Origin: Candidatus Gastranaerophilales bacterium
Lineage (GTDB): Bacteria; Cyanobacteriota; Vampirovibrionia; Gastranaerophilales; Gastranaerophilaceae
Direction: 5' to 3'
Assembly: GCA_944323735.1 (NCBI GenBank)
Contig: CALUTO010000007.1
Coordinates: 1 to 64,000 of the forward strand
Length of the DNA stretch: 64,000 bases
In this document: positions 12,274 to 51,904 of the stretch, piece after piece
Position numbering within the stretch: position 1 is the stretch's first letter
How the letters are laid out: each line of letters opens with the position of its first letter
Position numbers and translations under genes: made by a program
The notes under the pieces: model-generated
The model's database searches: none
Told to the model about the DNA's origin: nothing
What the model saw: only the letters and a program-made list of their open reading frames with translations

Positions 12274-13158
12274 TTAACCTATTAAGTTCAGTGCAAGAGC
12301 GGGCATCTGGTTAGCCTGAACCAGAAGGGTTGCTGATGTTTGCTGAAGGATTTGTGCTTTTGTATAGTTTGCACTTTCTTCTGCAATATCAGCGTCCATA
12401 ATCGTTGATTTTGCTGATGTTGCGTTTTCAATTGTTGTTACAAGCGAATCTGCTGCTGAATTGAGCCTGTTTTGTACAGCACCGATTGTAGCTTTTCTTG
12501 TTGTTACATTCTGCAGTGCAGCATCAACATCAGCAATAAATTTCGCTGCAGTTGAAGCGAACTCAAATGCTTCTTCGATAGAAGTGAAATTATTCACGCT
12601 GTTCGCACCATACAGTCCGAGTGCCTGTGCTGATGCGCTGTCAAATACACTGGCAGAGACATAGATAGCATTTGTAGCTGTATCTGCATTTGCACCAACC
12701 TGCAGTCTCAAACCGCTCGGGTCTGTTTTTGCAATAGAACCGTCCAACAAATTCAAACCGTTGAAGTTTGAAGATTTTGCTATTCTGTTAATTTCATCTA
12801 CACGTGCTTTAACTTCATCTTCCATTGCTGTCAATGATTTTTGATCATAGACACCGTTTGCTGCCTGTGTTGCAAGGTCTCTGATACGAAGCAGGTTATC
12901 TTCGATTACTCCGAAGTCTCCTTCAGCAGTTTGCAATACGTTTATCCCTGTTGCTACGTTAGACTGTGCTATTTTTGAACCCCTGATTTGCGTGTTTAAG
13001 TTTGAAGCAACGAACATACCGGCTGCGTCATCTGCTGCCGAGTTGATTTTCAAACCTGTTGACATTCTGTTTAGTGATGTGTTCAGTGTGTTTGTGGCAC
13101 TGTTCAAATTTGCCTGCGTTTTAAGTGCAGACATGTTGGTGTTAACGATAATTGCCAT
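12274..13158 (-). CDS. fliC: Flagellin
   Basis: This 294-residue flagellin is the secreted filament subunit. It keeps the D0/D1 helices at both ends with a short middle. The N-terminus MAIIVNTNMSALKTQANLNS is followed by RMSTGLKINSAADDAAGMFV and the LLRIRDLATQAANG segment. The C-terminal marks are AVQNRLNSAADSL, DADIAEESANYTKAQILQQ and the end ANQMPALALNLIG, which also acts as the export/assembly end. There is no cysteine, as is normal for flagellins. AAAGGAGT precedes the ATG, and a strong terminator follows, so it is monocistronic. I did not find a sigma-28 promoter upstream, but the word CATACTAAAGT (13278-13288) is shared with the upstream region of the 45 kb flagellin. Confidence 0.97.
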   Translation of the reverse strand: MAIIVNTNMSALKTQANLNSATNTLNTSLNRMSTGLKINSAADDAAGMFVASNLNTQIRGSKIAQSNVATGINVLQTAEGDFGVIEDNLLRIRDLATQAANGVYDQKSLTAMEDEVKARVDEINRIAKSSNFNGLNLLDGSIAKTDPSGLRLQVGANADTATNAIYVSASVFDSASAQALGLYGANSVNNFTSIEEAFEFASTAAKFIADVDAALQNVTTRKATIGAVQNRLNSAADSLVTTIENATSAKSTIMDADIAEESANYTKAQILQQTSATLLVQANQMPALALNLIG

Positions 13159-13272
13159 CGTCGTACTCCTTTCGCATATCCTGTATTATTTACTTCCCTG
13201 TTTTTATGATTGTTTTTGTATTCTCATAATAAAGGATAAAACAGGAAAGGAGAATTCTTATTTAGTCTGGTT

Positions 13273-44870: not shown

Positions 44871-44998
44871 ATTTCTCATACTAAAGTATAATACACCTAA
44901 AATCTTTTTGTATCAATATTTTTCAGGGATTTTACAGAATTTTTTTGCAAAAAACTATACTAAAGTATGAGAAATAAATTTCGATATATAAGGTGTAA
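44871..44998. repeat. Imperfect inverted duplication between rsmE and flagellin 4
   Basis: Two copies of the palindrome ATACTAAAGTAT (44878-44889 and 44957-44968) lie in opposite context. Read outward, each is followed by a GAGAAAT-like word and then, after an insertion in one copy, by a TATAT...GGTGTA word. Similarity extends about 40 bases per arm. The rightward arm carries the flagellin sigma-28 promoter; the leftward arm has TTTAG in place of TAAAG and no CGAT. Confidence 0.55.
44961..44987 (+). promoter_or_regulatory. Sigma-28 promoter of flagellin 4
   Basis: TAAAGTAT (44961-44968), an 11-base spacer and TTCGATAT (44980-44987) fit the FliA/SigD consensus (TAAAGTTT, N11, GCCGATAA) with exact TAAA-N15 geometry. 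Transcription from about 44994 would give a 47-base leader. Confidence 0.8.
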
Positions 44999-45040: not shown

Positions 45041-45973
45041 ATGGGAATTTATGTAAACACTAACATCAACTCCCTGATCGCACAGAGAAGCTTGACAAAT
45101 GCAACAAGCAACATGCAAAATGCAATAACCAGGCTTTCTACCGGTCTCAGAGTAAACCACGCAGGTGATGACGCAGCAGGTCTTTGCGTAGCTCAAGGTT
45201 TGGAAACACTCATCAGAGGTAACAGCAGAGCTAAATTAAATATTCAAGACGGCTTGAATATGATGTATATCGCAGAAGGCGGTATGGAAGGTGTAACAGA
45301 GGACTTGCAGAGAATTCGTGAGTTGTGCGTACAGGTAGCGAGTGATATTTACTCACCTGAACAAAAACAAACACTGATGAACGAAATTCAGCAAAGACTC
45401 GAAGACATCGACGTTATTGCAAACACCACCTCCTTCAACGGCGTTGTTCTGACAAACGGAACAAACCCCGAAAAAATGACAATTCAGTCAGGAAGCGGAT
45501 GGGATGAAGTTAACAACTCTATCGATATTGCACCGGCATTGACTAACATGTTGACCTCCGTACTCGGTGTTAAGTTGAATATCGTCTCTATTGATGAAGC
45601 GGTTGATACAACTGTCTCTGTCGGAAATATGACATACACTGAAGGCGGTGTTGCAGGTACTAAAATTAACGGCAGCAACTGGGACAGTGACATGGTTCGT
45701 GATTACATCAGAAAACTTGATGATGCCATTAACCTGATTGCAGAAAACAGATCATCTTTAGGTGCTTACCAGAACCGTTTGACTTCTGCAAGCAACAACC
45801 TGACTATCATGAACGAAAACTATGAACAAAGTAAATCCCAGATTATGGATGCTGACATGGCTGAAGAAAGTGCAAACATGGTTAAATATCAGGTTCTCCA
45901 GCAAACATCAGCAACAATGTTAGCACAGGCTAACCAGATACCTTCAATCGCTCTTACCCTTCTGGGAGGCTAA
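45041..45973 (+). CDS. fliC: Flagellin with conserved-core cysteines
   Basis: This 310-residue flagellin starts MGIYVNTNINSLIAQRSLTN. It carries ITRLSTGLRVNHAGDDAAG and QRIRELCVQVA in D1, and ends DADMAEESANMVKYQVLQQ and ANQIPSIALTLLGG. Unusually it has two cysteines in the conserved core, Cys49 (GLCVAQGL, normally GLAI) and Cys96 (RELCVQVA, normally RELAVQAA); flagellins normally lack cysteine. It is the only one of the four flagellins here with a clear sigma-28 promoter. A purine-rich GAGAGAGAA element precedes the ATG. A hairpin follows, so it is monocistronic. Confidence 0.97.
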   Translation: MGIYVNTNINSLIAQRSLTNATSNMQNAITRLSTGLRVNHAGDDAAGLCVAQGLETLIRGNSRAKLNIQDGLNMMYIAEGGMEGVTEDLQRIRELCVQVASDIYSPEQKQTLMNEIQQRLEDIDVIANTTSFNGVVLTNGTNPEKMTIQSGSGWDEVNNSIDIAPALTNMLTSVLGVKLNIVSIDEAVDTTVSVGNMTYTEGGVAGTKINGSNWDSDMVRDYIRKLDDAINLIAENRSSLGAYQNRLTSASNNLTIMNENYEQSKSQIMDADMAEESANMVKYQVLQQTSATMLAQANQIPSIALTLLGG

Positions 45974-50411: not shown

Positions 50412-51518
50412 TTAATATTGTATATTAATTTTCTCTATTGTTCCGTGGTAAGCACCTCTAAGCATCTGCTCAATCTCTACTTTATTGTCACTGACTTCAA
50501 TGGCAGTTTCCTGACTGATAAATCCGGCTTTTAAAAGTTTAATCAATGACATATTCATTGTAATCATATCATTGTATGAACCTTTCTTAACAAGGTCATA
50601 TACCTGTTCAAGCTCGTCTTTAATGATAAAGTCTTTAATAGTCGGAGTAACAACCATAATTTCACAAGCAGGAACTCTGCCGGATTTATCTTTTTTAGGC
50701 AATAGTTTCTGTGAGATACTGCCTCGCAAAGTATTGGCAAGCTGTTTTCTGATATGGTCTCTGTCCTGCGGCTGAAACATATTAACAATACGATTAACAG
50801 TCTGAACAGCATCATTTGTGTGCAAAGAAGCAATGACAAGATGTCCCGTTTCAGCAGCTTTCAGCGCACTGGTCAATGTTTCAACATCTCTGATTTCACC
50901 GATTAGTATAACATCGGGGTCTTGTCTTAGAGCATATTTCACACCGTCAGGAAACGACATGGTATCAATTTCGACCTGTCTCTGGGTTATAATTGATTTT
51001 TTATTGGTATAAATAAACTCAATAGGATCTTCTATTGTTATAATGTGTTTTTGCTCATTCTGGTTAATCAAATCTATTAAAGAAGCTATTGTAGTTGTTT
51101 TACCGCAGCCTGTCGGGCCGGTAACAAGGATTATACCGTTATGAAAATTAGCAAAACCCTTTATGGTAGGCGGCAAAAGTAAATCTTCAATAGAGGGTAT
51201 TTCATACGGGATTATACGAAAAACAAGTGCAGTATGCCCGAGCTGTCTTGCGAGATTAATTCTGAACCTCGATACACCTTTAAGTTCATAAGAGAAATCC
51301 AGATCAAATGCAGACTGAACTTTTGTTTTCAGATATTTCGGCAAAACAGTATTAAGTACATGCGAAATATCTTTTTCTGTGACAGGCGGAAGCGTTGTTC
51401 TGATAATCTTTCCGTTTTTTCTTATTGCAGGGGCTTCATCAATACGTAAATGCACGTCAGAAGCACCTTCTTTAACTGATTTTGTTAAAAATTCGTTTAT
51501 ATTAAGTGTATTTTCCAT
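50412..51518 (-). CDS. pilT: Type IV pilus retraction ATPase PilT
   Basis: This 368-residue hexameric secretion-superfamily ATPase powers pilus retraction. It has an N-terminal PAS-like domain with GASDVHLRIDEAPAIRKNGK, Walker A GIILVTGPTGCGKTTTIASL, the Asp box HIITIEDPIEFIY, Walker B RQDPDVILIGEIRDVETLTS, the His box ETGHLVIASLHTNDAVQTVN, and a C-terminal AIR-like end. GGAGAG lies upstream of the ATG. No other pilus gene is in the window, so this indicates twitching-type pili encoded elsewhere. It diverges from a sigma-28-driven small gene. Confidence 0.94.
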   Translation of the reverse strand: MENTLNINEFLTKSVKEGASDVHLRIDEAPAIRKNGKIIRTTLPPVTEKDISHVLNTVLPKYLKTKVQSAFDLDFSYELKGVSRFRINLARQLGHTALVFRIIPYEIPSIEDLLLPPTIKGFANFHNGIILVTGPTGCGKTTTIASLIDLINQNEQKHIITIEDPIEFIYTNKKSIITQRQVEIDTMSFPDGVKYALRQDPDVILIGEIRDVETLTSALKAAETGHLVIASLHTNDAVQTVNRIVNMFQPQDRDHIRKQLANTLRGSISQKLLPKKDKSGRVPACEIMVVTPTIKDFIIKDELEQVYDLVKKGSYNDMITMNMSLIKLLKAGFISQETAIEVSDNKVEIEQMLRGAYHGTIEKINIQY

Positions 51519-51603
51519 ATAACTAATTACTCTCCTCCAAACAGTATTCTAAAGTTTTTTTTGTCCAATTAAAAGTATTTTATATTTTTTAACAAAACTT
51601 TAC

Positions 51604-51630
51604 TCAAGTTTTAAAAAAAGATGCCGATAT
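51604..51630 (+). promoter_or_regulatory. Sigma-28 promoter of the 51.7 kb small gene
   Basis: TCAAGTTT (51604-51611), an 11-base spacer and GCCGATAT (51623-51630) match the FliA/SigD consensus with one change in each box. Transcription from about 51637 gives a leader of about 55 bases carrying AGGAGG. Confidence 0.8.
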
Positions 51631-51691
51631 ATAAAATATCAAACCAAGGATATGCGGTTTGTGTGTAGTTACATTATAGGAGGCGTATTTC

Positions 51692-51847
51692 GTGATTTCA
51701 AAAAACAAGTACTATGGGATGGACACTTCAATCGAAGAATTGGAGGAAGACCTCCGGGATCTCAAATGTATGTTCAACGAGAAGAGTTTTTTAAAGACAA
51801 GAAAAAAGGAGAAAAAATTCAAAAATAAAATAGCCTGGGAACAATAA
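51692..51847 (+). CDS. 51-residue protein under a sigma-28 promoter
   Basis: The GTG start has a perfect AGGAGG eight bases upstream. The product opens MISKNKYYGMDTSIEELEED and continues LRDLKCMFNEKSFLKTRKKE, ending basic (KKFKNKIAWEQ). The layout is an acidic helix followed by a Lys-rich tail, with one cysteine and no signal peptide or membrane helix. A sigma-28 promoter lies upstream and a bidirectional terminator downstream, so it is a stand-alone late flagellar gene by regulation. I recognise no family; FlgM, CsrA and FliT do not fit. A small chaperone, anti-sigma or motility modulator is possible but unsupported by homology. Confidence 0.75.
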   Translation: MISKNKYYGMDTSIEELEEDLRDLKCMFNEKSFLKTRKKEKKFKNKIAWEQ

Positions 51848-51875: not shown

Positions 51876-51904
51876 AAAAAGGACAGCAAATGCTGTCCTT
51901 TTAG
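51876..51904. terminator. Bidirectional terminator between the small gene and leuS
   Basis: GGACAGCA (51881-51888) and TGCTGTCC (51891-51898) with flanking A and T runs form a compact hairpin that serves the + strand small gene and the minus-strand leuS, whose stop is 60 bases away. Confidence 0.85.

Follow-up and report, generated by a model that had tools for sequence, protein, structure and literature searches.

Does a 51-codon reading frame that stands behind a sigma-28-type promoter, beside and divergent from pilT, encode a protein, and if so, how is it controlled and what is it for? The question arises in a 64,000-nucleotide stretch of DNA, referred to here as the window, from Candidatus Gastranaerophilales, a group of relatives of Cyanobacteria that do not photosynthesize. 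These bacteria live in the gut and are uncultured, and flagella occur in only some of their lineages (PMC4040986, PMC5877343). In the literature that we examined on the order, we found no discussion of sigma-28 or CsrA control. An earlier note on this DNA had described a near-consensus sigma-28 promoter, an AGGAGG ribosome site, a GTG start codon and a terminator, which together would make a stand-alone gene, and had suggested a connection between swimming and twitching. Every one of the named elements is present in the sequence (Table 1).

Table 1. Features of the small-gene locus and its surroundings, in window coordinates.
Feature	Positions	Strand	Remarks
Sigma-28-type promoter, TCAAGTTT (51604-51611)-N11-GCCGATAT (51623-51630); TCAA-N15-GCCG	51604..51630	+	Kept in ~25 related loci; strict TAAA form in relatives
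Leader hairpin, CAAACC-AAGGATATGC-GGTTTG, loop GGA at 51648-51650; putative CsrA site 1	51640..51661	+	Apparent covariation, 27 distinct leaders
Shine-Dalgarno AGGAGG; putative CsrA site 2	51678..51683	+	GGAGG invariant in 27 leaders
51-codon ORF, MISKNKYYGMDTSIEELEEDLRDLKCMFNEKSFLKTRKKEKKFKNKIAWEQ; GTG at 51692, stop ending at 51847	51692..51847	+	GTG start, homologues, pN/pS ~0.26
Intrinsic terminator, hairpin then T-rich sequence	51877..51902	+	Compensatory stem changes in same-genus species
pilT, divergent neighbour	50412..51518	-	
Putative sigma-70 promoter of pilT, TTGAGT (51607-51602), 17 bp, TATAAA (51584-51579)	51579..51607	-	Overlaps sigma-28 -35 box
Flagellin (context)	45041..45973	+	TAAA-N15-TTCGATAT at 44961-44987, looser motif form

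Results

A conserved small protein

The 51-codon ORF is a real coding gene, because its frame is conserved and its protein is under purifying selection. Homologues were recovered from 8 of 99 relatives by a single-sequence search and from 28 of the 383 genomes of the order by a profile search; they belong to three genera of one family of Candidatus Gastranaerophilales and have the same promoter and Shine-Dalgarno sequence in front. All are 51-53 codons long, start with GTG and keep the motifs MFNEK and KEKKF. Across about 25 related loci the frame contains no stop and no frameshift, and the GTG, the GGAGG and the promoter are kept with it, which agrees with the stand-alone gene proposed earlier. 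Silent differences outnumber replacement differences about fourfold (pN/pS ~0.26, uncorrected). Weaker profile matches in other genera (E 0.002-0.05) fall in frames that are long or broken, and look like chance.

The protein family is new. Searches against Pfam, NCBIfam and PDB sequences gave no family match and PHROGs gave only weak, scattered ones (the best, at E 0.0067, of unknown function), in line with the earlier expectation that the product would resemble no known small late flagellar protein. A phage or mobile origin was rejected on these PHROG results and on the absence of any match in phage records or IMG/VR. AlphaFold predicts two helices, an acidic one at residues 14-28 and a basic, Lys-rich one at 30-45, with a low confidence (pLDDT 70, pTM 0.35) that is too weak for a fold search. 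Most likely, the protein is a helical, lineage-specific cytoplasmic regulator or adaptor of the filament-building stage.

The promoter and its flagellar context

The promoter is of the TAAA-N15-GCCGATAA type expected of a sigma-28-dependent gene and lies at a proper distance from the start of the gene; its -35 element, TCAA, is one base off TAAA. The pattern TMAAGTTTT-N7-(N)CCGNWA stands upstream of the small gene in essentially all loci, and the roughly 25 related ones retain the -35 element and the CCG core of the -10. The promoter also stays with the gene at L008/L098 and L108, loci at which the gene is not next to pilT. At the other end of the transcription unit, the terminator stem changes within the genus from GGACAGC/GCTGTCC to GGGCAGC/GCTGCC, with compensation. 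Because the genome encodes FliA (233 bits against a curated cut-off of 189.6), FlhA (above its cut-off) and flagellins (nine matches, three of them apparent in the window), the reading of this element as a predicted sigma-28 (FliA) promoter is sound.

A genome-wide search for further sites of this type, which the earlier note had recommended, returned seven matches to the strict pattern TMAAGTTTN{10,12}TGCCGNTAW in the 2.06-Mb genome and none to a reversed control pattern. Other strict sites in it precede orphan ORFs of 49 and 43 codons, a GAF/HD-GYP protein, a pilin-like protein and a 175-residue orphan; in a different family of the order (f6), two loci (L124, L126) have the motif directly before flagellin. 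Flagellin is present in 18 of the 36 sampled genomes of the small gene's own family. The small gene occurs in 6 of these 18 and in none of the 18 flagellin-negative genomes, by statistics that ignore kinship, and many flagellated relatives are without it. Sigma-28-like sites are also found in flagellin-negative genomes; the regulon is therefore wider than the flagellum, and the motif alone is no proof of a flagellar role. The premise that sigma-28 sites normally serve motility genes calls for caution: non-flagellated relatives retain the motif and the strict sites here mostly front orphan genes.

Sigma-28-type sites come in two spacings, TAAA-N15 and TAAA-N16 (L009-L054), and some genes keep one of them across species; either tolerance or the presence of two sigma factors might explain this. 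Many strict sites in the family front orphan ORFs that are very small, at about 43-60 codons (L009 1557-1706, L013 1329-1460, L036, L039, L048, L050, L054), which suggests a set of undescribed small proteins in the sigma-28 regulon. In three genomes the GAF/HD-GYP protein (L012 97-1470; homologues in L029 and L043), likely a c-di-GMP phosphodiesterase, lies behind a sigma-28-type site whose spacing is 16 bases. There are two FHIPEP export-gate genes, one on contig C8 at 58000-77000 (L056) and one on contig C22 (L055). The lower-scoring copy, which shares an operon with FliF-like, FliH-like and FliI-like genes, occurs even in flagellin-less relatives, and may belong to a type III-like apparatus, distinct from the flagellum, that the family has retained.

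A leader hairpin and candidate CsrA sites

The leader measures 61 nt from the -10 element to the start codon, against about 30 nt for most of the sigma-28 leaders examined. It holds an inverted repeat, absent from the earlier note, that reads CAAACC...GGTTTG here and GAACCG...CGGTTC, GAATC...GATTC or GAAGCG...CGTTTC elsewhere. Across the 27 distinct leaders, 92% of the stem cells are paired, and 5 cells have changed on both sides, compared with 0.5 in shuffles. The values for paired cells, changed cells and covariation were reached by none of 500 shuffles, a control that ignores kinship, and sliding the arms by 1 to 3 columns abolishes the pairing signal. One pair holds most of the compensation, RNAalifold alone yields a weak leader consensus, and in the window species the predicted lowest-energy fold of the isolated leader differs from the hairpin. 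We hold with moderate confidence that the hairpin is conserved and that its arms co-vary. The arms are conserved although the loops differ in length, a pattern more easily explained by an RNA hairpin than by a DNA operator. A helix pairing the leader with the region between the Shine-Dalgarno sequence and the start codon was rejected, since its pair counts (68% paired) were no better than those of shuffles. A search of Rfam for a known RNA family gave weak sub-threshold matches only.

CsrA binds the consensus RUACARGGAUGU, preferably where a hairpin loop exposes the GGA, and in many cases spans from there to the Shine-Dalgarno sequence (PMC7652899). The loop of the small-gene leader reads ARGGAU in 20 of 27 cases, and GGA is present in the segment in 24 of 27; the loop GGA lies about 30 nt upstream of GGAGG. 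Five of the 27 leaders (L003, L005, L063, L077, L079) have neither ARGGAU nor a clear unpaired loop GGA, and the hairpin loops reach about 20 nt, above the CsrA optimum. FliW and CsrA are encoded in overlapping frames at one locus of the genome. Within the family, CsrA is found in 16 of 18 flagellin-positive genomes as against 0 of 18 flagellin-negative ones, and it accompanies the small gene in 23 of 25 genomes. Flagellin leaders contain ACA(R/C)GGA in 7 of 15 cases, compared with 0.6 in shuffles, and one of them, TTTACAGGATGTAAA, is almost the SELEX hairpin. Based on the putative layout of loop GGA and Shine-Dalgarno GGAGG, the presence of FliW and CsrA, the tracking of flagellin by CsrA and the sites in flagellin leaders, we consider it likely that CsrA controls the small gene, a possibility that the earlier note had not raised. 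In the flagellin leaders of the window (13081-13230, minus strand) and of L151, L157, L162 and L166, CsrA sites of the ACAGGAAGT or ACAGGATGT type lie just upstream of the ribosome site.

The pilT side

In most loci pilT is divergent from the small gene. The element TTGAGT/TTTAGA-N17-TATAA(A/T), directed toward pilT, overlaps the sigma-28 -35 element at the same offset and with the same 17-bp spacing in nearly all distinct loci with pilT. It scores at least 9 of 12 in 16 of 27 loci, compared with about 5% in shuffles, and is degraded in L008, a locus without pilT. Because the -35 boxes overlap, the sigma-28 polymerase at the small gene and the sigma-70 polymerase at pilT may exclude each other. 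Among flagellated relatives without the small gene, no divergent sigma-28 site was found at pilT where the start of pilT could be placed. Likewise, no diverged positional homologue was seen beside pilT in other relatives, at loci where the pilT start was found. The putative functional link between swimming and twitching gains a physical footing from the overlap of the divergent promoters, a feature that the earlier note did not name; the gene persists at two loci without pilT.

A second sigma-70-like element, TTGAAA-N17-TATAAT (51701-51673, minus strand; 11 of 12 to the consensus), falls inside the region where the small gene starts; an antisense or second pilT transcript could arise from it. 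Since it occurs only in the window's genus, we preferred the conserved element as the promoter of pilT.

Discussion

We propose, with a probability of roughly 0.6, that the small gene is a late flagellar gene, specific to three genera of one Gastranaerophilales family, that is transcribed under FliA and controlled at translation by CsrA and FliW. RNA polymerase carrying FliA would produce a monocistronic mRNA of about 265 nt, running from near 51637 to the terminator. A CsrA dimer would find two sites on it, the GGA presented by the leader hairpin and the GGAGG of the ribosome site. Bound there, CsrA would keep translation low until FliW lifts the block, as is the case for flagellin in Bacillus and Campylobacter, and the product, with its acidic helix followed by a Lys-rich helix, would act at the filament-building stage. 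That FliA and CsrA act on this gene, and what the protein does, we infer.

The proposed layered regulation of the gene consists of known parts. Like the late flagellar genes of sigma-28 (FliA/SigD), it has a promoter of the form TAAA-N15-GCCGATAW, FliA in the genome and flagellated hosts, but its product is an orphan protein of 51-53 residues confined to three genera. It shares with the hag/flaA mRNAs controlled by CsrA and FliW an upstream GGA, a GGA in the Shine-Dalgarno sequence and a genome that encodes both regulators; it differs from them in that the putative target is a small orphan gene, the loop is larger and the GGA is missing in a few species. The E. coli glgC leader, which the predicted layout here resembles, places a loop GGA just upstream of a second site that overlaps the Shine-Dalgarno sequence (PMC7652899); that gene is unrelated, and only two candidate sites occur here.

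It is also conceivable that promoter exclusion is the main point of the locus, which would then be a switch between swimming and twitching whose protein acts on type IV pili. The -35 overlap, at fixed offset and spacing in nearly all loci, and the divergent position of pilT in most of them favour such a switch, but gene, promoter and hairpin persist without an adjacent pilT (L098, L108), other flagellated relatives have pilT without a divergent sigma-28 site, and the overlap may be mere compactness; we regard it as unlikely. Alternatively, the transcript could work mainly as RNA, an abundant sigma-28-dependent mRNA or sRNA with two GGA sites that titrate CsrA and a peptide of secondary importance. 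The conserved structured leader is consistent with this, the C. jejuni flagellin mRNA is reported to have such a dual role (PMC4894983), and sigma-28-dependent regulatory RNAs exist (PMC10578931; PMC11187230). Purifying selection on the protein and the invariance of start codon and Shine-Dalgarno sequence argue against it and make it quite improbable.

FlgM genes are commonly transcribed by sigma-28, and the product resembles FlgM in being a small protein of the kind expected from a sigma-28 promoter. It might stand in for FlgM as an anti-sigma-28 factor peculiar to this lineage, expressed from a promoter that is itself its target, and the FlgM profile (PF04316) found no match in any of 59 genomes of the order and class, 39 of them flagellin-positive. 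This is very doubtful: the small protein is shorter than FlgM and matches neither its sequence nor its profile, and it occurs in only three genera, yet FlgM is undetectable in every flagellated relative, and elsewhere one that has escaped detection would still be required. Scarcely any probability attaches to a chance ORF behind a fortuitous promoter-like site. The frame is short and Lys-rich and lies in an AT-rich region, but frame, start, Shine-Dalgarno sequence and promoter are conserved in 28 genomes, and this conservation, with the low pN/pS, rules chance out.

The proposal of a late flagellar gene under FliA and CsrA/FliW could be extended. The product would then represent a new class of checkpoint protein, small and flagellar, in the sister clade of Cyanobacteria, wired to both sigma-28 and CsrA/FliW, and its promoter would silence pilT whenever sigma-28 is active, so that a change from twitching to swimming would be built into the locus. 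In that full form we consider the proposal a long shot. The locus points to sigma-28 and CsrA circuits together and offers a compact, readable target for each, and promoters for swimming and for twitching may compete there. Because FlgM was undetected in the genomes surveyed, the small orphan proteins of the sigma-28 regulon are natural candidates for the timing of sigma-28 activity.
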